The translations under genes and the position numbers were made by a program. A stretch of DNA of 11,068 nt from Clostridiales bacterium (GTDB lineage Bacteria > Bacillota > Clostridia > Oscillospirales > Oscillospiraceae): assembly GCA_017577345.1 (NCBI GenBank), contig PITX01000023.1, forward strand, positions 1 to 11,068, in the 5' to 3' direction. Positions 1 to 11,068 of the stretch are shown here, piece by piece; the stretch's first letter is position 1; every line of letters starts with the position of its first letter. Below the pieces are notes generated by a model. That model was not told the origin of the DNA and searched no databases. It saw nothing but the letters and a program-made list of their open reading frames with translations.

Positions 1-12
1 CCCATCAAATGC

Positions 13-50
13 AATGGCGTGACATTCCTGTCACGCCATTGCAGACTGTC
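13..50. repeat. Hairpin-forming direct repeat, copy 1
   Basis: A 38-nt sequence that recurs identically at 350-387. Its core is a perfect inverted repeat with arm AATGGCGTGACA and loop TTCC; in this copy the stem extends to 15 bp (10-24 pairing with 29-43). It ends in GACTGTC after the stem. No gene is visible on its left in the window, so it could be the terminator of an upstream gene or part of a dispersed intergenic repeat. The repetition itself is read directly from the sequence; any function is inference. Confidence 0.85.
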
Positions 51-349
51 AATAAAGCCTCAAATCGTCAAAATAAAGATTGGCGTTGACAATATTGTCA
101 TTGCGAGGTTTGCGGAGCAAACCGTGGGTGCGCAGCCGTTAGCGACGAAGGAGCGCTACGGATGCGGCCTACCCCCTGCGGGTACAATCTGTCCCTATAG
201 GTTTTGAATAATGTAACGAATATATATTTTGACTTACTTCGCAGTTTGCCCTCTACCGTACCTATGTACGCCGACGAGTGCAAACTGCTTGTCTTTGAGC
301 CTTTCTTAACAGCCTGTCAGCATGTCGAAAAGGCTTTTTCGACACGCTG
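51..349. other. Gene-free, repeat-rich intergenic segment
   Basis: No open reading frame here has a credible ribosome binding site or recognisable protein. The segment lies between two copies of a 38-nt direct repeat and contains several inverted repeats: GGTTTGC/GCAAACC (107-123), a nested dyad at 241-288, and a long stem at 317-350. The stretch beginning TGTCATTGCGAGG (97-109) resembles the GTCATTGCGAGG-type dispersed repeats found in many bacterial genomes; this is from memory and was not searched. The most economical reading is a composite of intergenic repeats downstream of the BMP lipoprotein gene. Confidence 0.6.
241..288. repeat. Nested inverted repeat
   Basis: The outer arms GCAGTTTGC (241-249) and GCAAACTGC (280-288) are perfectly complementary over 9 bp. 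Centred inside them is a second perfect dyad, CGTAC (257-261) and GTACG (266-270), with loop CTAT. The nested arrangement suggests a structured RNA or a palindromic intergenic repeat unit. No flanking gene starts close enough for it to be an obvious operator. Confidence 0.6.
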
Positions 350-350
350 A
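317..350. repeat. Long inverted repeat abutting the hairpin repeat
   Basis: TGTCGAAAA (323-331) pairs perfectly with TTTTCGACA (336-344) around a 4-nt GGCT loop, and the stem continues, after one A/C mismatch, with TCAGC (317-321) and GCTGA (346-350). It directly abuts copy 2 of the hairpin repeat. On the minus strand both hairpins follow the stop of the BMP lipoprotein gene at 393, so they may act as a transcription-ending or mRNA-protecting structure, although no clean U-tract follows either stem. Confidence 0.55.
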
Positions 351-387
351 ATGGCGTGACATTCCTGTCACGCCATTGCAGACTGTC
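350..387. repeat. Hairpin-forming direct repeat, copy 2
   Basis: Identical over 38 nt to positions 13-50. Here the stem is 12 bp (350-361 pairing with 366-377) because the bases outside the left arm differ from copy 1. It lies 5 nt beyond the stop codon of the minus-strand BMP lipoprotein gene and could serve as its 3'-end structure. The lack of a poly-U run makes it a poor classical terminator in either direction. Confidence 0.8.
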
Positions 388-392
388 GTACG

Positions 393-1385
393 TTATCTGG
401 TAGTATCTACCACGATCTCGCCGCTGACGATCTTGGCAGCCAGTGCTTCGATTTCAGCCTTGATCTCATCGGAAATCTGCTGCACAGCACCGTCATCGCC
501 GTAGCCGAGACCGACATAGCCGTTGCCCATATCTGCAACCCAGGTGGTGCCCAGCAGGGAGAGATCGCCCTCTTCAAATGCTTTGACTGCATCATAGATG
601 GAGTTGCCGACTTCCTTCTTCATGGAACAGGCAATCACATCCGGATTGATGTACTTCTGATCGGAGTCAACACCAATGGCAAGGAAGCCCTTTTCCTGTG
701 CTGCCTCGAATACGCCATCGCCTGCTGCAGAAGCGATCTGGAAGACGACATCCGCGCCTTCGTCATTCAGAGCGATCGCGCAATCCTTACCTGCGGCGGG
801 ATCATCATAGGAATTCGTATAGTTATGTACGACCTGAATGGAATCGGAATAGTACTTTGCGCCCTGCTCATAACCGACGATAAAGTCGTTGATGGTGTCG
901 CAGTCCTCGCCGCCGACCGCACCGACAACACCGCTCTCGGAAATCGCTGCTGCCGCATAGCCTGCAAGGAAGGAGCCTTCGTTCTGTGCATAGGTGATGT
1001 TCAGAATGTTTGCGACCGGAGCGGAGGTGGCATTGTCGATCCAGATCCACTTGACATCGGGATATTCCGGTGCGATGGTCTCAATGTCATAGAATTCCCA
1101 GCCGACACAGACAACGATATCCGCACCGTCTGCTGCGTTCTTCATCTGGGTATCATGGTTTTCGTTGTTGCATTCAATGTAGGTGACTTCTACGCCGAGG
1201 TCGGCTGCCAGACGGCCTGCACCCTCCTTGGAGGAGTCATAGAAGGAACGGTCACCGAACTTGCCGGCAACGACCAGCGCCAGCTTGGTGCCTTCGCCGT
1301 CGGGACCCGCTTCGCCGCCTTTGCACCCGGCAAAGACACAGGCGATCATAACAAGTGCAAGAAGCAATGCAATCATCTTTCTCAT
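393..1385 (-). CDS. BMP/PnrA-family nucleoside-binding lipoprotein (ABC transporter substrate-binding protein)
   Basis: A 330-residue predicted extracytoplasmic lipoprotein of the BMP (Med/PnrA) family, whose members bind purine nucleosides for ABC uptake systems. Residues 1-21 form a lipoprotein signal: basic Met-Arg-Lys start, hydrophobic core, and lipobox FAGC with the lipidated Cys at 21. The mature domain shows family landmarks: GKFGDRSFYDSS near its start, a GADIVVCVGWEF strand, GADVVFQIASAAGDGV, and AIGVDSDQ. The start at 1385 was preferred to an upstream in-frame ATG because GAGG lies 8 nt ahead of it, followed immediately by the signal peptide, and because the longer reading frame would begin upstream of the promoter. 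No permease or ATPase gene follows it in the window, so its transport partners are encoded elsewhere or it works alone. Family assignment is confident; the exact ligand is unknown. Confidence 0.9.
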   Translation of the reverse strand: MRKMIALLLALVMIACVFAGCKGGEAGPDGEGTKLALVVAGKFGDRSFYDSSKEGAGRLAADLGVEVTYIECNNENHDTQMKNAADGADIVVCVGWEFYDIETIAPEYPDVKWIWIDNATSAPVANILNITYAQNEGSFLAGYAAAAISESGVVGAVGGEDCDTINDFIVGYEQGAKYYSDSIQVVHNYTNSYDDPAAGKDCAIALNDEGADVVFQIASAAGDGVFEAAQEKGFLAIGVDSDQKYINPDVIACSMKKEVGNSIYDAVKAFEEGDLSLLGTTWVADMGNGYVGLGYGDDGAVQQISDEIKAEIEALAAKIVSGEIVVDTTR

Positions 1386-1409
1386 TTTTCTTACCTCACT
1401 ATCATATTC

Positions 1410-1443
1410 TTGTAAGAAGCACAATAATGCGCAGTTCTTACAA
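1410..1443 (-). promoter_or_regulatory. 5'-end stem-loop in the BMP lipoprotein leader
   Basis: On the minus strand TTGTAAGAA and TTCTTACAA (arms at 1435-1443 and 1410-1418) are perfectly complementary. Inside them GCGCA and TGTGC form a further 5 bp with one G-U pair around a TTAT loop. The stem begins about where transcription should start from the promoter at 1449-1477, so the mRNA would start with a hairpin. It could stabilise the message, or the dyad could be a repressor operator at the start site. The structure is seen; the role is inference. Confidence 0.6.
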
Positions 1444-1448
1444 TATAT

Positions 1449-1477
1449 ATTATAATAAACAGCAGGTGTTTCTTCAA
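1449..1477 (-). promoter_or_regulatory. Sigma-A-type promoter of the BMP lipoprotein gene
   Basis: Reading the minus strand, TTGAAG (1472-1477) and a perfect TATAAT (1449-1454) are separated by exactly 17 bp. This gives a leader of roughly 57 nt before the ATG at 1385. Confidence 0.8.
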
Positions 1478-1481
1478 GTAG

Positions 1482-1526
1482 AAAACGGAAATATGCCCCC
1501 TGCATGTCGCATAAATTTTCCGTTTT
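1482..1526. repeat. Dyad just upstream of the BMP promoter
   Basis: AAAACGGAAA (1482-1491) and TTTCCGTTTT (1517-1526) are perfectly complementary, with an inner TATGC (1492-1496)/GCATA (1509-1513) stem separated by a 3-nt bulge. It starts 4 bp beyond the -35 box of the BMP gene. On the plus strand a T-rich run follows (TTTTTATTTT), so it could also work as a terminator of plus-strand read-through. The role is undetermined. Confidence 0.4.
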
Positions 1527-1594
1527 TATTTTGGCGATTTTCAACAAAATGCCTGCCGCCGCGCTGCGTGTCGAAACGGCAGGGAAAAATAGGA

Positions 1595-1623
1595 TTGCAT
1601 TTTTCCGCCTGCGGTGATATAAT
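1595..1623 (+). promoter_or_regulatory. Promoter of tRNA-Gly
   Basis: TTGCAT (1595-1600), a 17-bp spacer, and TATAAT (1618-1623) with an extended -10 (TGA directly before the hexamer). The tRNA 5' end is 10 nt downstream of the -10, as expected for a tRNA gene with a very short leader. Confidence 0.85.
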
Positions 1624-1632
1624 TTGAGCCAT

Positions 1633-1706
1633 GCAGGTGTAGTTCATCGGTAGAACATCAGCTTCCCAAGCTGAATAGGGGGGTTCGACTCCCCTCACCT
1701 GCTCCA
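1633..1706 (+). tRNA. tRNA-Gly (anticodon CCC), CCA encoded
   Basis: A 74-nt cloverleaf can be drawn completely. The acceptor stem is GCAGGTG paired with CACCTGC; the D arm contains GTTC and GAAC around ATCGGTA; the anticodon stem is TCAGC/GCTGA with loop TTCCCAA, giving anticodon CCC (reads GGG glycine codons). The variable loop has 4 nt, and the T arm has loop TTCGACT on a stem of G residues pairing with CCCC and a terminal G-U. The discriminator is T and CCA is encoded at 1704-1706. It has its own promoter (1595-1623) and is followed at once by a strong terminator. Part of its 3' end is repeated at 1840-1861. Confidence 0.95.
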
Positions 1707-1746
1707 AAAAGGACGGAGGGTACTGTGTGCCCTCCGTCCTTTTTGG
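1704..1746 (+). terminator. Intrinsic terminator after tRNA-Gly
   Basis: A 17-bp perfect inverted repeat: arms at 1704-1720 and 1730-1746 with GC core GGACGGAGGG/CCCTCCGTCC and a 9-nt loop. The core is flanked by A5 and T5, so the structure can terminate in both directions. The left arm begins in the CCA of the tRNA. Confidence 0.9.
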
Positions 1747-1765
1747 AGAAAATGCATTCAAATAC

Positions 1766-1832
1766 AACAGTCCGGTGGACTGTTGGCGCCGGCGTTTCTG
1801 CCGGTGCCACCTTAATTTTGCCATCGGCAAAA
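1766..1832. repeat. Three-hairpin palindromic element
   Basis: Three consecutive hairpins lie in 67 bp: AACAGTCC/GGACTGTT (1766-1784, loop GGT), GGCGCCGGC/GCCGGTGCC (1785-1808, one G-T pair, loop GTTTCT) and TTTTGCC/GGCAAAA (1816-1832, loop ATC). The hexamers TGCATT (1753-1758) and AATGCA (1832-1837) form short inverted ends around it. There is no coding potential. It resembles a REP/MITE-like intergenic repeat of the kind dispersed in clostridial genomes, but no second copy is in the window to prove this. Confidence 0.6.
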
Positions 1833-1839
1833 ATGCAAA

Positions 1840-1861
1840 CGACTCCCCCTCACCTGCTCCA
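1840..1861 (+). repeat. Partial duplicate of the tRNA-Gly 3' end
   Basis: This repeats tRNA positions 1686-1706, from the T-loop CGACT through CACCTGCTCCA, with one additional C in the C run. No acceptor 5' half, D arm or anticodon arm precedes it, so it is not a functional tRNA gene. The 155-bp spacing and the 3'-end location match the footprint of site-specific integration at a tRNA gene, or the remnant of a deleted tandem tRNA copy. Confidence 0.8.
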
Positions 1862-1863
1862 TA

Positions 1864-1890
1864 AAGGAGCTGTTGTTTTTACAGCTCCTT
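1864..1890. terminator. Stem-loop between the tRNA remnant and spoVT
   Basis: AAGGAGCTGT (1864-1873) and ACAGCTCCTT (1881-1890) form a perfect 10-bp stem with a T-rich 7-nt loop, immediately beyond the spoVT stop codon. It may end spoVT transcription, or it may have been the original terminator of the tRNA. No good U-tract follows in either direction, so efficiency is uncertain. Confidence 0.55.
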
Positions 1891-1891
1891 C

Positions 1892-2434
1892 TCAGTTCTC
1901 CATTTGCTTTCCGAGGAAGCCCGCGACCGTCTGCGCCAGCTTCTGTTCCGACTCGGTCGGTGCGCTGTCATCCTCATTCAGCAGGAGCATCACGCAGCCC
2001 ATCAGATCGCCCTCGGCAATGATCGGTGCGGCAACGCCCAGATGATAGCGGTCAACGGTTTCCGCCGGACGCAGACGCGTTTCTCCGGCGCGGTAGCGGT
2101 AGCTCTTGCGCTGCTCCATGAGCTGCTCCAGCTCGGCGGAGTTGCGCTTTTCCAGCAGCTCGCGCTTCGGTGCACCTGCCACGGCAATAATGGAATCCCG
2201 GTCGGATACCGCAGCGATGTGTCCCGTATTTTTCCCGATGGACTCACAGATCTGCGCCGCAAAATCCTGCAAATCGCCCATCGGCGAATACTTCTTAAAA
2301 ATGACCTCTCCATCCTTCTCCGTATAGATCTCCAACGGGTCACCCTCGCGGATGCGCAGGGTGCGGCGGATCTCCTTGGGAATGACCACACGGCCGAGGT
2401 CGTCAATGCGGCGGACAATTCCGGTTGCTTTCAT
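1892..2434 (-). CDS. spoVT: SpoVT-like AbrB-family sporulation transcription regulator
   Basis: A 180-residue regulator matching SpoVT in length and architecture. Residues 1-50 are an AbrB/SpoVT swapped-hairpin DNA-binding domain: MKATGIVRRIDDLGRVVIPK followed by EIRRTLRIREGDPLEIY. Residues of about 55-178 form a GAF-like sensory domain, with the PIIAEGDLMGCVMLLL stretch typical of a late GAF strand. In Bacillus, SpoVT is a forespore regulator downstream of sigma-G; the same role here is inferred from homology. The start is supported by AAAGGAG about 9 nt upstream of the ATG. It is divergent from the DUF3592-like gene, with 200 bp between them. A weak sigma-A-like promoter may exist, but no convincing sigma-G promoter was found. 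AbrB-type paralogues without a GAF domain are shorter, which favours SpoVT. Confidence 0.92.
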   Translation of the reverse strand: MKATGIVRRIDDLGRVVIPKEIRRTLRIREGDPLEIYTEKDGEVIFKKYSPMGDLQDFAAQICESIGKNTGHIAAVSDRDSIIAVAGAPKRELLEKRNSAELEQLMEQRKSYRYRAGETRLRPAETVDRYHLGVAAPIIAEGDLMGCVMLLLNEDDSAPTESEQKLAQTVAGFLGKQMEN

Positions 2435-2570
2435 ATCTCAAATCTCCTTTGCTGCTCTTTCTTGCATTTCTATTGTCTGCAAACAATGGGGAATTATGCA
2501 ACCGCCTGCCGCAGAAGCACAAGATAATTGCGTCTGTCGAAAACCGGCACAAAAATTGAAAGTAGGAATC

Positions 2571-2599
2571 TTGCAAAAATGCGGCAATTTTGCTATGAT
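2571..2599 (+). promoter_or_regulatory. Promoter of the DUF3592-like gene
   Basis: TTGCAA (2571-2576), a 17-bp spacer and TATGAT (2594-2599), with an extended -10 element TGC immediately upstream. The ATG at 2635 lies 35 nt after the -10. Confidence 0.75.
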
Positions 2600-2634
2600 A
2601 GTTTTGATGAGTATCGGAATGATCGGAGGGCAGA

Positions 2635-3027
2635 ATGTCGGACTTGTATTTTTTGATATTTGGGATCATCTGCGCTCTGATCGGCGGCGTTTTGATCGTT
2701 CTGAACATCCACATGATCTTCGGATGCAGAATGAAAATATGCGCAGCGATCACCGCGATCAAGCGGGAATCGACGGTCATTCGCGGCTCGACCGTGCACA
2801 CCTACCGTCCCGCGTTTACCTATACCGTGGACGGTAGCACCTATCACGGGACATGCCCGTTTACCTCCTTCAAAAAGGAAAAATATGCTGTCGGTGACGC
2901 TTTGCAGATATTCGTCAGCAAGGCAGATCCGTCGCAGTACCGTTTCAAGGGCAAGATTGGGCTGCTGACCACCGGGATGATCCTTCTCGGCATCGGGCTG
3001 CTCTTTATAATTCTGTATTGGCTGTAA
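2635..3027 (+). CDS. DUF3592-like membrane protein
   Basis: A 130-residue protein with a hydrophobic segment at each end (about 5-29 and 108-129) and a beta-rich soluble part between. The central part carries YRPAFTYTVDGSTYHGT and a following YAVGDALQIFVSKADPSQYRF, the pattern seen in DUF3592 proteins (a 'P-x-F-x-Y-x-V-D-G' strand, then 'vGd-v-v-y-p-P'). The function of the family is unknown. GGAGGG lies 4 nt ahead of the ATG and a good promoter precedes it. Rubrerythrin starts 70 bp downstream on the same strand without a clear terminator between, so the two may be co-transcribed. The family call is by motif recognition only. Confidence 0.75.
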   Translation: MSDLYFLIFGIICALIGGVLIVLNIHMIFGCRMKICAAITAIKRESTVIRGSTVHTYRPAFTYTVDGSTYHGTCPFTSFKKEKYAVGDALQIFVSKADPSQYRFKGKIGLLTTGMILLGIGLLFIILYWL

Positions 3028-3097
3028 ACCGTAATCTACGGGCTCCGGGATATGCTCCGGATACCGCGAAAATAACCAAACAACGGAGGAAATGACG

Positions 3098-3637
3098 ATG
3101 GCAACAAAGTACGCAGGCACACAGACAGAGAAAAACCTGGAGGCAGCATTTGCCGGAGAATCCCAGGCGAGAAACAAGTACACCTATTTTGCATCCAAGG
3201 CGAAGAAGGAAGGCTTTGAGCAGATTTCAGCACTGTTTCTGAAGACTGCCGACAACGAAAAAGAACACGCTAAGATGTGGTTCAAGGAGCTGAACGGCAT
3301 CGGCTCCACCGCAGAAAACCTTGCTGCTGCCGCAGACGGCGAAAACTACGAGTGGACAGACATGTATGAGGGCTTTGCCGTGACTGCCGAAAAAGAGGGC
3401 TTCCCGGAGCTTGCGGCAAAATTCCGTCTGGTCGCGGCGATCGAGAAGCATCACGAGGAGCGTTACAGAGCACTGCTGCACAATATCGAGGTGCAGGAGG
3501 TCTTCGCAAAGAGCACTGTGAAGGTCTGGGAATGCCGCAACTGCGGTCACATCGTGGTCGGCGAAAAAGCACCGGAGATCTGCCCGACCTGTGCACATCC
3601 GCAGGCATATTTCGAGGTCCACGCTGAAAATTATTAA
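3098..3637 (+). CDS. rbr: Rubrerythrin
   Basis: A cytoplasmic non-haem iron protein that reduces hydrogen peroxide with electrons from rubredoxin or NADH-linked donors, protecting anaerobes from oxygen. At 179 residues it has the classical two-domain form. The ferritin-like diiron domain (about 1-138) has ligand motifs with E21 ([11 protein letters not shown]), E54 and H57 ([11 protein letters not shown]), E98 (TAEKEGF) and a helix with E116 and H119. The C-terminal rubredoxin-like domain (about 142-179) has the two CxxC pairs C146/C149 and C162/C165 binding one Fe. An ATG 6 nt upstream is in frame, but GGAGG (3085-3089) sits only 2 nt before it and 8 nt before the ATG at 3098, so the latter is chosen. 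No clear promoter of its own was seen. Confidence 0.95.
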
Positions 3638-3647
3638 GGGCGAAAAT

Positions 3648-3678
3648 ACGGAGCAGAGAAAAAACTCTGCTCCGTTTT
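3648..3678. terminator. Shared terminator between convergent rbr and metG
   Basis: A perfect 11-bp stem ACGGAGCAGAG/CTCTGCTCCGT (3648-3658 and 3665-3675) with an A6 loop. It is followed by TTTATATT on the plus strand and by ATTTT on the minus strand. It fits bidirectional termination between the two converging genes. Confidence 0.88.
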
Positions 3679-3681
3679 ATA

Positions 3682-5631
3682 TTATACCAATCTGGCGCCG
3701 GCGGGGATGCTGTCGTCCAGCATGACAAGGTTCAGCTTGTCGCCGCGCTCGGCGGACAGCAGCATACCGCACGACTCCTGCCCCATCATCTTACGCGGCG
3801 GCAGGTTGGTCACGGCAACCAGTGTCTTGCCGATCAGCTCCTCCGGCTTGTAGAATTTTGCAATACCGGAAAGGATCTGGCGTGGGGTATCCGTGCCGTC
3901 ATTGAGCGTGAATTTCAGCAGCTTTTCCGACTTTTTGACATTCTCACAGGTCAGAACCTTGACGACTGTCATCTCCACCTTGCAGAATTCGTCAAAGGAG
4001 ACGGGAGGCAGAGGCTCGGGCAGGGGATCCTCCGCAGGCTCTTCCGGCTTGGCATTCAAGGCTTCCAGCTCTGCCAGCTCCTTTTCCGCGTCGATGCGCG
4101 GGAACAGGGCAGGACCTGCGGTAACGGTCGTCTGTGCATCCAGCTTGCCGTAAACGCACAGGTCGTCCCAGTCATATGTCTCTGCGCCGATGCGGTTTCT
4201 GATCTCCTCCGCAGTCGCGGGCATGAACGGTGTCAAAAGACCGGCACAAATGCGGACAGTCTCCAACAGATTATACATCACGCGGGCAAGTCTTGCCTTT
4301 TTGCTCTCATCCTTGGCAAGCACCCACGGTGCGGTCTCGTCAATATATTTATTGGCGCGGGAAATGACGGCGAAAACCTCGCTCAGCGCATTCTGGAACG
4401 CATAGTGCTCCATCTGCTCCTCGTATTTTCCGTGCAGCTCGGATGCCATGGCGATCAGCGCATCGTCCAGCGCAGGGTCAGCTTCCTGCTCGGCAGGCAG
4501 CTTGCCGCCGAAATATTTCTGCACCATCGCAACGGTGCGCGAAACAAGGTTGCCCAGATCATTCGCAAGATCGGTATTGATGCAGGAGATCAGCAGCTCG
4601 TTGGAGAAGTTGCCGTCTGAGCCGAACGGGAAGGTGCGCATCAGGAAGAAGCGCAGGGCATCCGTGCCGTAACGCTCCGCCAGCAGATACGGATCGACCA
4701 CATTGCCCTTGGACTTGGACATCTTGCCGCCGTCTAAAAGCAGCCAGCCGTGACCGTAGACCTTCTTCGGCAGCGGCATACCCATGCTCATCAGCATGGC
4801 GGGCCAGATGATGGAATGGAAACGAACGATCTCCTTGCCGACAAAATGCACATCGGCAGGCCAGTAGTCCTTGTAGTCGTCATATTTGTCGTTCATGAAG
4901 CCCAGTGCGGTGGTGTAGTTGAACAGCGCGTCCACCCACACATAGACCACATGACCCGGATCGAAATCGACAGGAACGCCCCAGGTGAAGCTGGTGCGCG
5001 ATACGCACAGATCCTCCAGACCTGCGTCGATGAAGTTGTTGACCATCTCATTGACACGGCTGCGCGGCTCTAAGAAGTCCGTCTCGGTCAGGAGCTTGCG
5101 GACAGGCGCAGCGTACTTGGAAAGGCGGAAGAAATAGGCTTCCTCCTCTGCGGGCTGACATTCGCGGCCGCAGTCGGGGCATTTGCCGTCCTTGAGCTGG
5201 CTCTCCGTCCAGAATGATTCGCACGGCGTGCAGTACATCCCCGTATACTTTCCCTTATAAATATCGCCCTTGTCGTACATTGCCTTGAAGATCTTCTGAA
5301 CGGAGGCAACATGGTAGTCATCCGTCGTGCGGATGAAGCGGTCATAGGAAATGTTCATCAGCTTCCACAGATCCAGTACGCCCTTTTCCCCCGTGACGAT
5401 GTTGTCGACAAACTGCTGCGGCGTGATGCCTGCATTCTTTGCCTTCGTCTCGATCTTTTGTCCGTGCTCATCCGTGCCCGTCAGGAACATGACATCGTAG
5501 CCGCGCAGACGCTTGTACCGCGCCATCGTATCGGTCGCTACGGTGCAGTAGGAATGACCGATATGCAGTTTGTCCGAGGGATAGTAGATCGGGGTGGTAA
5601 TATAAAATTTCTTTTTGCAGGAATCACACAT
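3682..5631 (-). CDS. metG: Methionine--tRNA ligase
   Basis: Cytoplasmic class I aminoacyl-tRNA synthetase charging tRNA-Met, 649 residues. The Rossmann catalytic core has HIGH at 23-26 (KLHIGHSYCT) and the KMSKS loop at 303-307 (GGKMSKSKGN). A zinc knuckle in the connective insertion has C134/C137 and C151/C154. The anticodon-binding helical domain follows, and residues 544-649 form a C-terminal OB-fold tRNA-binding domain of the Trbp111/EMAP type (KVEMTVVKV, SGIAKFY, NLPPRKMMGQESCGMLL), which supports dimerisation in many bacterial enzymes. The reading frame extends 35 codons further upstream into the VanZ gene, but AAGGA about 8 nt before the ATG at 5631 and the usual N-terminus support this start. 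It lies 26 nt behind the VanZ-like gene, probably in one transcript. No T-box leader is visible. It ends at the shared terminator. Confidence 0.97.
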   Translation of the reverse strand: MCDSCKKKFYITTPIYYPSDKLHIGHSYCTVATDTMARYKRLRGYDVMFLTGTDEHGQKIETKAKNAGITPQQFVDNIVTGEKGVLDLWKLMNISYDRFIRTTDDYHVASVQKIFKAMYDKGDIYKGKYTGMYCTPCESFWTESQLKDGKCPDCGRECQPAEEEAYFFRLSKYAAPVRKLLTETDFLEPRSRVNEMVNNFIDAGLEDLCVSRTSFTWGVPVDFDPGHVVYVWVDALFNYTTALGFMNDKYDDYKDYWPADVHFVGKEIVRFHSIIWPAMLMSMGMPLPKKVYGHGWLLLDGGKMSKSKGNVVDPYLLAERYGTDALRFFLMRTFPFGSDGNFSNELLISCINTDLANDLGNLVSRTVAMVQKYFGGKLPAEQEADPALDDALIAMASELHGKYEEQMEHYAFQNALSEVFAVISRANKYIDETAPWVLAKDESKKARLARVMYNLLETVRICAGLLTPFMPATAEEIRNRIGAETYDWDDLCVYGKLDAQTTVTAGPALFPRIDAEKELAELEALNAKPEEPAEDPLPEPLPPVSFDEFCKVEMTVVKVLTCENVKKSEKLLKFTLNDGTDTPRQILSGIAKFYKPEELIGKTLVAVTNLPPRKMMGQESCGMLLSAERGDKLNLVMLDDSIPAGARLV

Positions 5632-5657
5632 GACTGATCCTTCTTTCCAAAATGTAG

Positions 5658-6074
5658 TTACGATTTCTTTTTCCGCAGACGGAAAAACAGGTAAATGATC
5701 AGCGTGCCGACAATGACGCCGGACAGGTCGATCCACACATCTCTGACATTGCCGCTGCGTCCGGGGACAAAGAGCTGAAGCGTCTCATCGCACAGGGCGA
5801 TCAACAGACCGCAGGCGATCGGCTTGAGCAGCAGGAAGTTTCGCATCCGGTAAAACATCCCCGTCATCAGGAAGCCGAGCAGTGCAAATTCCGCGAAGTG
5901 ACCGCACTTGCGCAGGATCCGGTTCGTCATCCACGGCAAAATTTTCTGGATATAGTACAAAAGGCCGAGGCTTTCGGCATCGCTTTGCGCGGCAGGTCTG
6001 GAAGAATGCCAGAAAATCACGCCGATCCACACGGCGGTAAACAGCAGCCAGAGCCAGAATTTTTTCTTTTTCAT
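5658..6074 (-). CDS. VanZ-like family membrane protein
   Basis: A 138-residue integral membrane protein with about four hydrophobic segments (roughly 5-22, 60-76, 83-98, 114-131) and a basic C-terminus. It carries VanZ-like signatures: FWHSSRPA after the first helix, KCGHFAEFALLGF in the second, and CDETLQLFVPGRSGNVRDVW leading to a conserved Asp-Leu-Ser-Gly in the fourth. VanZ of enterococci contributes to teicoplanin resistance by an unsettled mechanism; most family members, including this one, have no known role, so no resistance function is claimed. The start at 6074 is supported by GGAGGG 7 nt upstream and by the promoter at 6108-6136; the much longer upstream reading frame is only the antisense of metF. 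metG follows in the same transcript. Confidence 0.87.
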   Translation of the reverse strand: MKKKKFWLWLLFTAVWIGVIFWHSSRPAAQSDAESLGLLYYIQKILPWMTNRILRKCGHFAEFALLGFLMTGMFYRMRNFLLLKPIACGLLIALCDETLQLFVPGRSGNVRDVWIDLSGVIVGTLIIYLFFRLRKKKS

Positions 6075-6107
6075 GCCGATTCCCTCCGAGCTTCGAAAAT
6101 CGGAAAT

Positions 6108-6136
6108 AGTATACCACAAAAGTCCGGAAAGTGCAA
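6108..6136 (-). promoter_or_regulatory. Promoter of the vanZ-like/metG operon
   Basis: On the minus strand TTGCAC (6131-6136), a 17-bp spacer and TATACT (6108-6113), with an extended -10 (TGG). The start codon is at 6074, so the leader is under 30 nt, too short for a T-box or other riboswitch. Confidence 0.8.
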
Positions 6137-6192
6137 CCAACAGAGAAAAATGCTGTATGTTTTTCCGAAAAGACAAATTCCCCCATTTCGCC

Positions 6193-6221
6193 TTGTATTT
6201 TGCAGCATTTTGTGATACGAT
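6193..6221 (+). promoter_or_regulatory. Candidate promoter of the metF-acs operon
   Basis: TTGTAT (6193-6198), a 17-bp spacer and TACGAT (6216-6221) with TGA forming an extended -10. A perfect TATAAT at 6237-6242 is an alternative -10, but no good -35 lies 16-18 bp before it. Either choice leaves about 50-75 nt of leader before the ATG at 6300, with no recognisable SAM, cobalamin or THF riboswitch. Confidence 0.6.
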
Positions 6222-6299
6222 AAAGATTAATAAATGTATAATGGTAAAGTGTTGGCTTTTCTTTTCCCACAACAACCCGATGACAGGAGGCATACAGCT

Positions 6300-7223
6300 A
6301 TGCGGAAGATCACCGAAATCATGAAAGAACGAAACACAGTCTCCTTTGAAGTTTTCCCGCCTAAGACCGATGCCGGCATGGAAAAGCTCTGCGGCAAGGG
6401 CGGTATGCTGGAAAAGCTGTATTCGCTGCACCCCGACTATATTTCCTGCACCTATGGCGCAGGCGGTACGAATGTCGGCAAAAATCTGGAGGTGCTGAAA
6501 AAGATCCGTGCAGACGGCTGCTGTACCCCCGTCACACACTTTACCTGCATCGGCAACACGAAAGACAGCATCCGTGCCCAGCTGCAGACCTATCTGGATA
6601 ACGGGATCGACCATATGCTCGCGCTGCGCGGCGATCTGCCGTTCGGCATGACGGAGACCGGCGGTGACCTGCACCACGCAACGGAGCTTGTCAGCTTCGT
6701 CCGCAAGGAATTTGGTGACCGCTTCACCGTCGCCGTTGCAGGCTCGCCCGAGGGTCACATTGCCTGCACCTCGCTGGAGGCGGATATCGGCTTCCTCAAG
6801 CAAAAGCAGGATAACGGTGCAGACCTCATCCTTACCCAGCTTTGCTGGGATGTGGATCAGTTCCACCGCTGGCTCGACGCCATCCGCGCCGCCGGCATCA
6901 CCATGCCCGTCGATGTCGGCATCATGCCCATTCTCGACCAGGCAGCCACCATCAACATGGCACTCTCCCGCAACGGCTGTGCTCTGCCGCGGGAGCTGAC
7001 AAGAATAATTTCCAAATACTGGATCTTTCCCAACCCGTTTGACAAAGAACCGACTGACACGGAGGTTTCCTCGAAGAAAGCATCCTTTAAGGAGGCGGGC
7101 ATCGAATACACCGTTCGCCTGATCGGTGAATACCTTGCCTGCGGCGTCAACGGCTTCCATCTGTACGCACTGAACAAGTACGACGATGTCGCCCGGATCG
7201 CAAAAGAGGCAAATCTCATCTGA
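6300..7223 (+). CDS. metF: 5,10-methylenetetrahydrofolate reductase
   Basis: FAD-dependent TIM-barrel enzyme that reduces 5,10-methylene-THF to 5-methyl-THF, supplying methyl groups for methionine synthesis or for the methyl branch of the Wood-Ljungdahl pathway. The 307 residues match the MetF family length. Landmarks are SFEVFPPKT at 15-23 with the catalytic-type Glu17, TYGAGGT at 51-57, LALRGDLP at 107-114 (folate/FAD-contacting Asp112), AGSPEGH at 147-153 and ILTQLCWD at 177-184. The ATG at 6300 was chosen because AGGAGG (6285-6290) lies 9 nt upstream and an N-terminal extension to 6234 has no family counterpart. It heads the acs gene set, with acsD starting 26 nt after its stop, which points to delivery of methyl-THF to the corrinoid protein. 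No metV partner gene is adjacent. Confidence 0.95.
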   Translation: MRKITEIMKERNTVSFEVFPPKTDAGMEKLCGKGGMLEKLYSLHPDYISCTYGAGGTNVGKNLEVLKKIRADGCCTPVTHFTCIGNTKDSIRAQLQTYLDNGIDHMLALRGDLPFGMTETGGDLHHATELVSFVRKEFGDRFTVAVAGSPEGHIACTSLEADIGFLKQKQDNGADLILTQLCWDVDQFHRWLDAIRAAGITMPVDVGIMPILDQAATINMALSRNGCALPRELTRIISKYWIFPNPFDKEPTDTEVSSKKASFKEAGIEYTVRLIGEYLACGVNGFHLYALNKYDDVARIAKEANLI

Positions 7224-7249
7224 TTATCTTTCCGTTTGGAGGCACGACC

Positions 7250-8191
7250 ATGGCTTTTACAGCAAAAACAGAGGCGTATCCCGCATCGGTGATACCCGTC
7301 ACGATCGGCACAGGCGAAAAGGCGATCACGCTGGGCGGAAACCATGCTCTGCCCTTCTGCTCCTTTGATGCACCGATTCAAAATGCGCCGAAAATCGGTA
7401 TGGAAATTCCCGATGCAGGCATCCGTGCCTATCTGCAGGCAGGTCTGTGCGAATTCTATCAAGGCTGTACCTGTCCTGCCGAGATGGCAAAGCGTGCCGC
7501 CTCCGTACCGGGCGTTTCCTTCCTCTGCCTGCATTTGGAAAGTGCCGACCCCAACGGCGAAAACAAATCCGCCGCGGAATGTGCCGCGCTTGCTCGTTCC
7601 GTTGCCGGAGCGACCGACCTGCCGCTTGTCATCATGGGCTGCAAAAACGCGGCAAAGGATGCCGAGATTTTCGCGGCGATCGCCGAGGCACTGCAGGGCA
7701 GGAATATTCTCCTGCTCTCGGCTTGTGAGGAAAACTACAAATCAGTCTGCACCGCCGCTCTGAGCTACGGGCAGAAAATCGGTGCGGAATCCGCCGTGGA
7801 TATCAACCTGGCAAAGCAGCTCAATGTGCTGATCACCCAGCTCGGCGCTGCGCCGTCGTCCGTTGTGATGAATGTCGGCTCTGCCGCCGCCGGGTACGGC
7901 TATGAATATGTCGCCTCCACCATCGACCGCATCCGTGCCGCCGCGCTGGCACAGAGCGACGATCTGCTCCAAATGCCGATCATCACGCCGGTGGCAGACG
8001 AGGCATGGAGCGTCAAGGAGGCGATCGTGCCCGAGGCGGATATGCCTGCCTGGGGCGATGCCGAGAAGCGCGGCATTGAAATGGAGATCACTACTGCCGC
8101 CGCTTATCTGACCTGCGGCTCGGACGCGGTCATCCTGCGCCATCCGGCGGCAGTCAGTGCCATTGCGGACATGCTTGCCGCGCTGATCTGA
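7250..8191 (+). CDS. acsD: Corrinoid/iron-sulfur protein small subunit (acetyl-CoA synthase complex delta subunit)
   Basis: Small, TIM-barrel subunit of the heterodimeric corrinoid iron-sulfur protein (CoFeSP), which carries the methyl group on cobalamin between methyl-THF and acetyl-CoA synthase. At 313 residues it is close to the usual 310-325. Diagnostic stretches include the N-terminal TIGTGEKAITLGG, LHLESADPNGENKS in the strand 3 region, VVMNVGSAAAGYGYEY followed by DRIRAAAL, and the C-terminal DEAWSVKEA. GGAGG lies 7 nt upstream of the ATG. Its partner, the large subunit, is encoded 20 nt downstream as the N-terminal part of a fusion protein. The assignment rests on overall resemblance to AcsD as remembered, not on an alignment. 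Confidence 0.92.
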   Translation: MAFTAKTEAYPASVIPVTIGTGEKAITLGGNHALPFCSFDAPIQNAPKIGMEIPDAGIRAYLQAGLCEFYQGCTCPAEMAKRAASVPGVSFLCLHLESADPNGENKSAAECAALARSVAGATDLPLVIMGCKNAAKDAEIFAAIAEALQGRNILLLSACEENYKSVCTAALSYGQKIGAESAVDINLAKQLNVLITQLGAAPSSVVMNVGSAAAGYGYEYVASTIDRIRAAALAQSDDLLQMPIITPVADEAWSVKEAIVPEADMPAWGDAEKRGIEMEITTAAAYLTCGSDAVILRHPAAVSAIADMLAALI

Positions 8192-8211
8192 ACGAAAGGA
8201 GGACATGCGCT

Positions 8212-10449
8212 ATGGCATTGAAGGGCTTAGATATTTTTAAGCTGTCTCCGAAGAAAAACTGCAGAGAATGCGGTTGTCCGACCTGTATGTCGTTCTGTAT
8301 GAAGGTCGCGCAGGGTGCGGCGTCGTTGGACAGCTGTCCGCACTTCTCTCCCGAGGCGATCGCCGCACTTCTCGAGGCGACTGCGCCTCCCATGAAGACG
8401 GTTTCGGTCGGAAATGACCTGAAGCTCGGCGGTGAAACCGTCCTGTTCCGCCACGAAAAGACCTTTGTTTCGCGCAACCGCTTTGCTGTTTCCGTCTGCA
8501 CCAGCATGGAGGACACAGCCGTCAAAGAGCGGCTTTCCGGCCTGCAGAAGATCGACTATGAGCGCATTGGTGAGCGCGAATATATTGAGTTCGTTCTGGT
8601 ACACTGTACAACAGATGCCGCCGGAAAATGGGAGGCACTCGTCAAAAGTGCCGCCGCGACCGGACGCACGCTGATCCTCGACTGTGAAAATCCGGACTGT
8701 GCCAAGCGGGCACTTGCCATCTGCGCTGACGGCAAGCCCATTCTCAACGGTGCAAACGCGGAAAACTACGCCGAGATGAACGCGATCGCGCTGGAATACG
8801 GCGTTGTGCTCGGTGTCCGCGGAGAAAATCTCAGCAAGCTTTACGACACCGTGAAGCAGTTGGAAGCACTCGGCAATAAAAATCTCATTCTCGATGTCAC
8901 CGGTAAAGATGCAAAGGAAACCTTTGCCAATGCCGTTCTCGTCCGCCGTACCGCACTGAAAGACGGCGACCGCACCCTCGGCTATCCCTCTATCGTCAAT
9001 CTGGCAAGGATCGCGCGGGGCAATCTCTCCCTGCAGACGGCACTTGCCGCCGCCTTTACGCTGAAATACGGCTCTGTGATCGTCATGGAGCAGATGTGCT
9101 ATGCGCAGGCTCTGCCGCTGTACGGTCTGCGCCAGAACATCTTCACCGACCCGCAGAAGCCGATGAAGGTCACGCCGGGCATCTATCCGATGAACGGCGC
9201 TACACCGGATGATCCCTGTCTGATAACCGTCGATTTCGCGCTGACCTATTTCCTCGTCTCCGGCGAGATCGAACGCTCGGGTGTACCGGTCAACCTGTTG
9301 ATCACCGATGCCTCCGGCATGTCCGTTCTGACTGCCTGGGCGGCGGGAAAATTCTCCGCCTCCACCGTCAAAGCCTTTTTTGACGGGCAGGACATCGCGT
9401 CCAAAATCAGAAGCCGCATCCTCGTCATTCCCGGCAAGGTCGCGGTGATGCGCGGCGAAATTCAGGAGAAGCTGCCGGAGTGGAAGGTCATTTCCGGCAC
9501 GAAAGAGGCTGTAGAGCTGGTCAAGTACCTCAAGGACGGCGAGCATCTCAAGGCCGCCGCCGCACCGGTCAAGTCCGCTGCGCCGCGTATGGGCGGCAAA
9601 TTGGTCATTCCCGACATCGTACACAGGGATATGGGCGTTTCCTACAAGCCCCGGAATGCGCAGTCAAAGAAATTCGTCATCATCGGCGAACGCATCCACT
9701 GCATCAGTCCCGTCATCCGTGAGGCGATGGCGACCTTCAACCCCGACCCGATTTTAGAGCGCGCTGCACAGCAGATCAAAGCAGGCGCGACCTATCTCGA
9801 TGTCAATATCGGTCCTGCAGAGTCAAACGGTCCCGAGCTGATGACCTGGGCTGTCAGGCTCCTGCAGGAGGATTTCAACAATGTGCCGCTGGCACTCGAT
9901 ACCACCAACAGCAAGGCGATCGAAGCCGGTATCCGCGTCTATAACCGCACCAACGGCAAGCCCATCGTCAACTCTGCGGACGCAGGCTCGCGCATCTCCA
10001 ACATCGACCTTGCCGCCGCGAATGACGCCATAGTCATCGCCCTGTGCTCTGCTGACGGCATTGCCAAGGACAATGAGGAGCGGATGCACCACTGCCACAC
10101 GATGCTCGAGCGCGGGCTGTCTCTCGGCATGGATGCGTCTGACCTGTGGTTTGACCCGCTGTTTTTGGTCGTCAAGGGGATGCAGGAGAAACAGATGGAT
10201 GTCCTCAACGCCATCCGTATGTTCTCCGACGAGGGGCTGAACTCCACCGGCGGTCTGTCCAACAGCTCCAACGGTGCGCCCAAGGCCATTCGCCCCATCA
10301 TGGACTCCGCACTCATCGCCATGGCGATGATGCAGGGTCTGACCTCTGCGATCGTCAATCCGAACGACCGTCGGCTGATGGAGACGGTCAGATCCTGCGA
10401 TATTATCAAGAACAACGAGCTGTATTCCGACAGTTATCTGGAAATATAA
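8212..10449 (+). CDS. acsC-acsE: Fusion of corrinoid/iron-sulfur protein large subunit (AcsC) and methyl-THF:corrinoid methyltransferase (AcsE)
   Basis: A 745-residue protein joining two proteins that are normally separate. Residues 1-443 match AcsC, the CoFeSP large (gamma) subunit: an N-terminal [4Fe-4S] domain with C17, C20, C25 and C42 (KNCRECGCPTC, LDSCPHF), then the TIM-barrel and C-terminal cobalamin-binding region (LVIPGKVAVMRGEIQE). An Ala/Pro-rich linker (about 444-485) leads to residues 486-745, a pterin-binding TIM barrel like AcsE/MeTr, about 260 residues as usual. It shows FVIIGERIH, TYLDVNIGPA, LALDTTNSKAIEAG, DLWFDPLFL, the GLSNSSN loop whose Asn contacts the pterin in MeTr, and YSDSYLEI at the end. 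AcsE transfers the methyl of methyl-THF to Co(I) of AcsC, so the fusion joins donor enzyme and acceptor. The frame is open throughout. AAAGGAGG lies 9 nt before the ATG. The domain calls are strong; a sequencing artefact is unlikely because a genuine linker separates the halves. Confidence 0.92.
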   Translation: MALKGLDIFKLSPKKNCRECGCPTCMSFCMKVAQGAASLDSCPHFSPEAIAALLEATAPPMKTVSVGNDLKLGGETVLFRHEKTFVSRNRFAVSVCTSMEDTAVKERLSGLQKIDYERIGEREYIEFVLVHCTTDAAGKWEALVKSAAATGRTLILDCENPDCAKRALAICADGKPILNGANAENYAEMNAIALEYGVVLGVRGENLSKLYDTVKQLEALGNKNLILDVTGKDAKETFANAVLVRRTALKDGDRTLGYPSIVNLARIARGNLSLQTALAAAFTLKYGSVIVMEQMCYAQALPLYGLRQNIFTDPQKPMKVTPGIYPMNGATPDDPCLITVDFALTYFLVSGEIERSGVPVNLLITDASGMSVLTAWAAGKFSASTVKAFFDGQDIASKIRSRILVIPGKVAVMRGEIQEKLPEWKVISGTKEAVELVKYLKDGEHLKAAAAPVKSAAPRMGGKLVIPDIVHRDMGVSYKPRNAQSKKFVIIGERIHCISPVIREAMATFNPDPILERAAQQIKAGATYLDVNIGPAESNGPELMTWAVRLLQEDFNNVPLALDTTNSKAIEAGIRVYNRTNGKPIVNSADAGSRISNIDLAAANDAIVIALCSADGIAKDNEERMHHCHTMLERGLSLGMDASDLWFDPLFLVVKGMQEKQMDVLNAIRMFSDEGLNSTGGLSNSSNGAPKAIRPIMDSALIAMAMMQGLTSAIVNPNDRRLMETVRSCDIIKNNELYSDSYLEI

Positions 10450-10464
10450 ATACGGAGGTACAAC

Positions 10465-10899
10465 ATGAAAAAGCTTTCCATGATTCTGATCGCTGCCCTG
10501 CTGATTACTATACTTGCAGGCTGTTCCATTCAGCACTCAGTCGATGGCATTCAGGAGGAAGCAGAAAAACTGCCGATTATCGAAGTGGTACAGGTTTTGG
10601 CAGACAATGATGAGAACGCTTTTTTGGCATATATGCACCCCTCGGTTTCCAAAGATGCCGCCCACAACGGGTTTGTCTATATGGCTGACTATCTGTATGC
10701 AGCTGCCCCGGTATCGCTTGAGTGTCTCAGTACCAATATATATGCCGGCATCGGTGCCGGTGGGAAGTCCCGCACCATTACCTCAAGCTATCTTGTTCAC
10801 CTTGATAAGGGCAGCATTCTTGTCGATGCCGTATATGTCGAAGACAGCGACGGCTCCGGATTTACACAGTTTCTCTGCAAAATCGGTGTTGCACAGTAA
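10465..10899 (+). CDS. Small lipoprotein of unknown function within the acs operon
   Basis: A 144-residue predicted lipoprotein: positively charged start (MKK), hydrophobic stretch 4-18, and lipobox LAGC with the lipidated Cys at 20. The mature part (about 125 residues) is soluble and acidic, starting with a helical segment (EEAEKLPIIEVVQVLADNDE) followed by alternating strands. This outline could fit an NTF2-like fold, but no signature was recognised and that is only a guess. GGAGG precedes the ATG by 7 nt. The gene starts 15 nt after the AcsC-AcsE fusion and ends 30 nt before the acsV start, so it is almost certainly part of the operon. Its extracytoplasmic location is odd next to cytoplasmic corrinoid enzymes. 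Confidence 0.85.
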   Translation: MKKLSMILIAALLITILAGCSIQHSVDGIQEEAEKLPIIEVVQVLADNDENAFLAYMHPSVSKDAAHNGFVYMADYLYAAAPVSLECLSTNIYAGIGAGGKSRTITSSYLVHLDKGSILVDAVYVEDSDGSGFTQFLCKIGVAQ

Positions 10900-10929
10900 T
10901 TTTCCTTTTCCGAAAAAGGAGTTTCCTTC

Positions 10930-11068
10930 ATGTTTCAAGTGTCTTTCCAATTTGATAACGGAGATGCGCCTGTAACTGCCGCTGTTTCGCCCGAAGAAAC
11001 GCTTCTGGATGCGGCACGGCGGCTGAAGATCGCAATTGACGCGCCCTGCTCCGGCAACGGCTCATGCG
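10930..11068 (+). CDS. acsV: Corrinoid protein reductive activator (RACo-type), 5' end only
   Basis: Only the first 46 codons are in the window; the gene runs off the right edge. They encode the start of a plant-type [2Fe-2S] ferredoxin domain: a beta hairpin, DAARRLKIAIDAP, then C40-SGNGS-C46, the first two of four expected cluster cysteines. In acetogens the protein with such an N-terminus beside acsC/acsD/acsE is the ATP-dependent reductive activator (RACo, AcsV; ASKHA/DUF4445 C-terminal domain), which returns accidentally oxidised Co(II) of CoFeSP to Co(I). AAAGGAG lies 8 nt upstream of the ATG. The identification depends on the acs context and the ferredoxin motif, since the ASKHA part is not visible; an ordinary [2Fe-2S] ferredoxin remains possible. 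Confidence 0.8.
   Translation, partial: MFQVSFQFDNGDAPVTAAVSPEETLLDAARRLKIAIDAPCSGNGSC

Follow-up and report, generated by a model that had tools for sequence, protein, structure and literature searches.

A single-frame AcsC-AcsE fusion in gut Clostridia of the family Oscillospiraceae and its possible part in methionine synthesis

The window analysed here is a stretch of 11,068 nucleotides from a Clostridiales bacterium of the family Oscillospiraceae (assembly GCA_017577345.1, contig PITX01000023.1, positions 1 to 11,068). It is contig 136 of a metagenome-derived assembly of 1.6 Mb in 331 contigs, 90.8% complete, which is called G000 below; other G labels denote sampled genomes and L labels denote the genome loci that were compared. 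The window carries acsCE (8212..10449, plus strand), in which AcsC, the large subunit of the corrinoid iron-sulfur protein (CoFeSP), and AcsE, the methyltetrahydrofolate (methyl-THF):corrinoid methyltransferase (MeTr), are encoded as one protein of 745 residues. Its 745 codons run without a stop, with AAAGGAGG ahead of the ATG, and Pfam placed an FeS domain at residues 13-44, CdhD at 68-438 and Pterin_bind at 505-716. A sequence-only reading of the window had proposed that two complete proteins are joined in this polypeptide, and both halves scored above their NCBIfam cut-offs: the AcsC half (8212..9537, plus strand) matched NF003195 over residues 1-442 with 504.1 bits (cut-off 306), and the AcsE half (9667..10446, plus strand) matched NF040758 over residues 486-745 with 458.1 bits (cut-off 370). 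In the 331 contigs of G000, acsCE was the sole match to the fused protein.

The residues expected of each half are in place. C17, C20, C25 and C42, the four cysteines of the [4Fe-4S] motif that had been named in the sequence-only reading, were unvarying across 76 aligned fused proteins, and Asn684 was the alignment partner of MeTr Asn199, the residue altered in PDB 2ogy. The AcsC half matched PDB 9fzy_F at an E-value of 7.6e-136, with 49% identity in the structural match, and the AcsE half matched MeTr structures. In these solved structures AcsC and AcsE are separate chains, as had been stated, whereas here the AcsE sequence lies within a single stop-free frame. The C-terminal part of the AcsC half is presumed to bind the corrinoid; the HgcA corrinoid model fell on residues 318-447 (E 9.5e-8, far under cut-off), and the AcsE domain sits right behind this presumed corrinoid-binding end, in agreement with the placement described earlier. 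Both halves look to be under purifying selection, judging from the comparison with locus L021, in which nonsynonymous and synonymous divergence (dN and dS) were 0.11 and 1.02 for the whole gene, 0.13 and 1.18 for the AcsC half, and 0.05 and 0.82 for the AcsE half.

Given that the window is a metagenome contig, the chance that misassembly or a frameshift error had joined two genes was considered; nothing else speaks for it. Among the best 80 of 527 genome loci encoding a relative, 73 carried a single frame of 738-768 residues (two of the 73 were cut at the contig start), so the continuity of the frame, which the sequence-only reading had singled out for checking, is borne out by many separate assemblies. 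The remaining seven were split, and came from Blautia schinkii, three other Blautia, Limivivens, one Eubacteriales record and one Clostridia record. In the protein database, the best 120 of 7999 scored proteins were all full-length fusions of 745-759 residues that covered the whole query at 79-100% identity, the first of them being probably the window's own. The linker is also alike across genera, and an artefact is hardly credible. A separate AcsE made from an internal start was rejected as well, since none of the candidate starts inside the window's gene (codons 460, 464 and 474) has a ribosome-site-like motif ahead of it. With near certainty, acsCE is a genuine gene fusion.

The linker (residues 443-485; 9538..9666, plus strand) consists of a variable Ala-rich part followed by most of a conserved tail that ends at F488. 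It measured 43 residues between the two NCBIfam matches, or 47 by a fixed anchor rule that runs to F488; by the same rule, the linkers of 74 of 75 fused proteins spanned 39-66 residues with a median of 61 (L051 was left out, as its anchors did not fit). The earlier description of the linker as Ala/Pro-rich therefore stands in part. Its first half is Ala-rich (in the alignment, variable with much Ala, Glu and Lys), but the final ~22 residues are conserved and non-repetitive, with Pro at -22 in 93% of sequences, Ile at -20 in 92%, Asp at -16 in 92%, Val at -13 in 97% and Tyr at -11 in 99%. This tail was missing from the split AcsE starts inspected, which open with M-A-K-F or similar directly ahead of the barrel; in 7 of 7 inspected for a motif, AAAGGAG or GGAGG lay ahead of the start. 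An AlphaFold2 model of acsCE built from 76 fused sequences (mean predicted local distance difference test score 80.8, predicted template modelling score 0.45) gave a mean confidence of 39 for residues 451-460 and 86 for residues 471-480, which suggests a flexible first part of the linker and a better ordered tail. Among the 50 Foldseek matches listed, CoFeSP chains fitted the AcsC half, MeTr chains fitted the AcsE half, and only MetH chains aligned across both, poorly (root-mean-square deviation 26-28). Four fused sequences (L091, L092, L093 and G194) have a clearly distinct, Ala/Pro-rich linker.

To what extent the architecture is shared was assessed in two genome samples. In 300 genomes of the window's family, searched at a threshold of E 1e-60, matches were found in 90, and 27 (the window's own counted) had a clean full-length fusion. 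Four further contig-cut pieces span the junction, and with the 27 clean ones they come from 13 genera, in which no clear split copy was seen in this sample. In a sample of 398 genomes of the phylum, 116 had matches, and one clean frame across both halves was present only in the window's own genome; eight others gave one match across both halves with internal stops (3 of the 8 were inspected). A genome search may assign AcsC and AcsE matches to the same frame despite a stop between them, and apparent fusions outside the clade were rejected on inspection: at 19 of 20 doubtful junctions from the family and phylum samples a stop lay between the halves, and the split AcsE opened with M-A-K-F, M-G-K-F or similar. 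The twentieth, in G194 of the window's family, is a fusion in which the reading frame changes around residue 350. A long open frame in G401 was likewise discarded, this genome having its own 447-residue AcsC, and no plasmid carriage was supported, the best match, to an Acetoanaerobium noterae record of 2.6 Mb, being in two pieces and 54.8% identical. The novelty that the sequence-only reading had attached to the fusion is thus weakened as regards rarity, since the architecture is common within one family.

In many split genomes acsE lies close behind acsC and in the same frame (in G025, 24 bases past the stop); these in-frame cases were selected by the search and are no guide to frequency. Because split acsE is often so placed, fusion would require little beyond the loss of one stop codon. 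A quick AcsC-domain tree with 75 fused and 14 split members required two changes of the fused or split label. With the distant outgroup removed (75 versus 13), a tree holding the fused sequences together was higher in likelihood by 23.8 and was not rejected by the approximately unbiased (AU) test (p 0.754), and on this basis a single origin is likely, although not proven. In the quick AcsC tree, L091-L093 and L100 lie apart from the rest, and for the group of L091-L093 and G194 a second fusion event keeps some small probability. We therefore describe acsCE as a variant of known parts, probably evolved once, that recurs within one family of gut Clostridia.

The genes around acsCE form a contiguous cluster in the order metF, acsD, acsCE, a small open reading frame and a RACo gene, without cooC and without acsB. 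The product of metF (6300..7223, plus strand, with ATG 6300 as the chosen start; Pfam MTHFR, 1.8e-63 on 6312-7220) is a methylenetetrahydrofolate reductase, which makes the methyl-THF substrate. The acsD gene (7250..8191, plus strand; NF040759, 438.9 bits, cut-off 430) encodes the small CoFeSP subunit, the partner of AcsC. The small open reading frame (10465..10899, plus strand) stands at the acsB position of most relatives; its start appeared lipoprotein-like when read by eye, it had no Pfam or NCBIfam match, and a comparison with 81 other loci gave nothing at E 1e-15. The contig end cuts the last gene (10930..11068, plus strand) after its first 46 codons, which resemble a reductive activator of corrinoid proteins of the RACo/AcsV type: they are 50% identical over 46 residues to the RACo of L084, itself AcsV by NF040756, tblastn matches were found in 54 loci, and no PDB match was found for this 46-residue start. 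Further upstream, and named from a reading of the sequence, are metG (3682-5736, minus strand), a rubrerythrin gene (3092-3637, plus strand), an AbrB/SpoVT-like regulator (1892-2434, minus strand) and a BMP-type lipoprotein (393-1547, minus strand); metG and rubrerythrin each matched one other acs locus.

When gene order was counted in fused loci with enough flanking sequence, all 65 had acsD just upstream, and 63 of the 65 had cooC directly ahead of acsD-acsCE. The two exceptions for cooC are L045 (which belongs to G009) and L095, and neither genome had a match to acetyl-CoA synthase (ACS). The 3.5 kb after the fusion held acsB at 49 of 60 loci, and the 3.5 kb before it held metF at 30 of 60. 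In G014 cooC is kept and acsB is absent from the 7.8 kb downstream of the fusion; the contig of G002 stops 270 bases past the fusion, and its gene order is uninformative. Three tetrahydrofolate (THF) riboswitches were observed near acs clusters, in L095 (14362-14459, minus strand), L024 (6394-6488, minus strand) and L026 (2390-2486, minus strand). In L117 (17114-17754), which belongs to G014, an OLE RNA (443 bits) was found a few kb upstream of metF-cooC-acsD-acsCE.

ACS (PF03598) and carbon monoxide dehydrogenase (CODH; PF03063) were both sought in 24 genomes, and ACS alone beyond these. Neither was matched in G000, which on this search does not show the CODH/ACS of the Wood-Ljungdahl pathway, nor in three fusion-bearing members of the same genus, G002, G009 (99% complete) and G014 (94%). 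The premise of the sequence-only reading that the tethered AcsC must still dock with acetyl-CoA synthase is thereby weakened. Elsewhere in the family, ACS was matched in 48 of 58 further genomes (weakly in G020), and G248 is the one fusion-bearing genome among the ten without it. Named loci led to 11 genomes, three of which had no ACS match, those of L095 (Faecousia sp.), L068 (Pseudoflavonifractor sp. MSJ-30) and L045. Two ACS matches are present in many genomes of the family; in G011 (contigs C100 and C65) one of them adjoins acsCE and the other is on the CODH contig.

These data could also mean that the window's organism carries out ordinary acetogenesis and nothing else, its CODH/ACS having been missed through incomplete assembly or unbinned contigs. 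Outside the genus, 24 of 25 clean fusion-bearing genomes have ACS (the exception is G248), the same searches matched ACS and CODH in three fusion-bearing genus-mates (G004, G011 and G016), and G000 is in 331 contigs. However, G009 and G014, at 99% and 94% completeness, likewise lack both enzymes, and the window's cluster is unbroken yet without cooC and acsB. Moreover, the AcsC of the window groups with those of G009 and G014 (SH-like approximate likelihood-ratio support 94, below the 95 mark), and ACS went unmatched in the L095 and L068 genomes too. We consider acetogenesis alone unlikely, and CODH and ACS seem to have been lost in the window's lineage. That acsCE is then a remnant in decay after loss of the Wood-Ljungdahl pathway, for which the missing cooC and acsB might be cited, is very improbable: dN/dS is about 0.1, the catalytic residues are conserved in the ACS-lacking members of the 76-protein alignment, and the gene is kept with metF and acsD at two or more places in the tree (the window's group and L095).

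The fate of the methyl group was examined through the genes of methionine synthesis. In 80 genomes, hand-picked from the genus and family searches rather than comprising every matching genome, PF01717 (found in MetE and in core methionine synthases) had no match, while controls were positive in 10 of 14; core-MetE, and with it a core methionine synthase of the MesA-D type, was rejected as the methyl acceptor. The other candidate is PF02574, the homocysteine-binding barrel, which occurs in a short one-domain form or within MetH, the two being told apart by open-frame length. All 7 AcsCE genomes among the 17 of the genus lacked MetH and had the one-domain form (295-320 codons; in G000 a fragment; in G004 the AcsCE match itself is contig-cut), and no full MetH was found in G000. 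Six genomes without AcsCE (G001, G003, G006, G007, G010 and G012) had MetH-length frames of 801-828 codons together with PF02607 (B12-binding_2, the MtaC-type corrinoid domain). The short form was also present in four genomes of 55-85% completeness in which AcsCE was unmatched; one of the four, G015, has both ACS and CODH, and another, G008, has CODH. PF02607 was absent from all 7 fusion-bearing genomes of the genus, and a separate MtaC-type corrinoid protein was accordingly discarded as the carrier; acsCE itself matched neither PF02574 nor PF02607 and is not a MetH.

The same tendency was seen across the 80 genomes. When AcsC was present (60 genomes), 50 had the short form only, 5 MetH only, 3 both and 2 neither; when it was absent (20 genomes), the counts were 5 short only, 11 MetH only and 4 neither (Fisher p 4e-5, with the G000 fragment scored as short and kinship uncorrected, as in all these comparisons). 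In genomes at least 90% complete, the short, MetH, both and neither classes numbered 36, 3, 3 and 1 with AcsC versus 1, 10, 0 and 4 without it (p 4e-6), and within the genus short versus MetH stood at 7 to 0 with AcsCE and 4 to 6 without it (p 0.03). Genomes with CoFeSP and AcsE thus tend to be without MetH and to keep the homocysteine barrel only, a pattern that fits replacement of the remainder of MetH by CoFeSP and AcsE. In Blautia schinkii (L090, G737), in which acsC and acsE are split, the sole PF02574 match was a 317-codon frame, and the MetH-lacking pattern may extend to acetogens of the Lachnospiraceae. Pseudoflavonifractor sp. MSJ-30 (L068), whose record carries no label as a metagenome-assembled genome, had one PF02574 match, with a 298-codon frame.

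Taken together, we put at roughly 60% the reading that acsCE specifies a tethered methyl-transfer unit which, CODH/ACS having been lost in the window's lineage, was kept for methionine synthesis. In such a unit the linker would tie AcsE to the C-terminal end of AcsC, AcsCE would team with AcsD, the product of the preceding gene, and MetF would supply methyl-THF. The AcsE domain would hand the methyl group to Co(I), either in the CoFeSP to which it is tethered or in an adjacent one, and the RACo/AcsV-type protein would restore over-oxidised cobalt. That acsCE moves methyl from methyl-THF to CoFeSP is highly probable; that the tether raises the local concentration of the methyltransferase and fixes a 1:1 ratio, as the sequence-only reading suggested, is a reasonable inference. 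In most relatives the methyl would pass onward to acetyl-CoA synthase in acetogenesis. In the window's lineage, by contrast, the unit would have been retained because it feeds methionine synthesis: methyl-CoFeSP would serve the one-domain homocysteine methyltransferase (PF02574), and separate proteins would do the job of MetH. Methionine as the chief methyl sink in the window's genome has, in our judgement, slightly better than an even chance. We give about even odds to the more specific proposal that in the CODH/ACS-free lineage AcsD and AcsCE are modules of a CoFeSP-based, cobamide-dependent methionine synthase for which a stand-alone PF02574 barrel provides the homocysteine module. Possibly the same route operates in relatives that bear CODH/ACS and lack MetH, and perhaps in Blautia schinkii. 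AcsE chemistry is reversible and metF adjoins, and methylated compounds could instead be the methyl source, with CoFeSP relaying the group to THF or another acceptor as a one-carbon supply; the fusion-bearing genus-mates, however, without MtaC-type PF02607, have no known partner to load the methyl, and such a flow is improbable.

Several observations weigh against a role of the tethered unit in methionine synthesis. G000 is fragmented, and its PF02574 evidence comprises only the final 30 profile positions, at a contig end. L068 keeps cooC although its genome has no ACS match. The absence of acsB within 3.5 kb, found in 11 of 60 fused loci, is a weak sign by itself, since the genomes of four acsB-less loci (L028, L058, L079 and L091) carry ACS at another site and L052 has it upstream. 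Shared ancestry inflates the association between AcsC and PF02574; 8 of the 60 AcsC-positive genomes have MetH and 2 have no PF02574, and G248 lacks ACS yet has MetH. The one-domain gene was not beside the acs cluster, or beside a corrinoid gene recognisable by eye, in 8 loci. In G009, the best solved relative of this protein was the MetH of T. maritima (E 4.8e-47), ahead of betaine/homocysteine S-methyltransferase structures (E 1.4e-16 to 5.3e-14), but the NCBIfam ranking (bifunctional homocysteine methyltransferase/MTHFR 247 bits, betaine 181, MetH 141, S-methyltransferase 109; all below cut-off) leaves the label 'MetH-type' unsettled. A search of the window's cluster gave no S-adenosylmethionine riboswitch and no T-box at or above the gathering score, and a riboswitch link to methionine was dropped. 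Finally, at its template modelling score the AlphaFold2 model, which covered AcsCE only, does not allow the mutual placement of the AcsC and AcsE halves to be interpreted.

The system shares much with those already known. CoFeSP and MeTr of acetogens (PDB 4djd, 2ycl, 2yci and 9fzy) have the same domains, catalytic Asn and cysteines, and in split relatives acsD, acsC and acsE are also adjacent; the difference lies in separate AcsC and AcsE chains there versus one chain with a 43-residue linker here. MetH likewise combines a methyl-THF-binding barrel with a corrinoid domain and passes the methyl to homocysteine; its corrinoid and homocysteine domains share a chain, whereas PF02607, its cap family, was not found in the fusion-bearing genus members. 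In two reports, MesB and MesC were predicted, from gene distribution, to take methyl from CoFeSP (PMC7857596), and core-MetE of Dehalococcoides was proposed to do so (PMC7005905). As we propose here, CoFeSP would in those cases deliver methyl straight to a homocysteine methyltransferase that has no folate domain; those enzymes are of the MetE type (PF01717), in contrast to the candidate PF02574 barrel, and Dehalococcoides lacks AcsE and MetF, both of which are present here.

No description of an AcsC-AcsE fusion was found in searches of an open-licence library, which omits most subscription-journal papers, and as far as searched the fusion is previously undescribed; this part of the earlier claim of novelty stands. 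In two papers (PMC3584212 and PMC12213060), 'fusion' refers, in the portions covered, to His-tags and cells. A 2024 survey (PMC11338639) gives acsE as 'not detected' in 78% of human-gut Oscillospirales genomes with CODH/ACS and assigns one KEGG Orthology (KO) entry each to acsC (K00197) and acsE (K15023); its genomes are of the same order as the window's, the genus name Faecousia is partly common, the word 'fused' is absent from its main text, and no fusion is mentioned in the parts covered. A fused gene given one KO entry would yield acsE as 'not detected', and the fusion likely explains the undetected acsE of that survey. A recent ruminant study (PMC12449052) lists acsE among six genes required of an acetogen, by which 449 acsB-bearing metagenome-assembled genomes became 69. 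The fusion therefore bears on which gut bacteria count as acetogens, acsE being a marker that the ruminant study required. It also offers a natural tethered CoFeSP-MeTr for structural study of how cobalamin shuttles between its partners. The stronger interest lies in the members, the window's genome included, in which no CODH/ACS was found: they provide a testable case in which CoFeSP may have been re-used as a methyl carrier for methionine synthesis.

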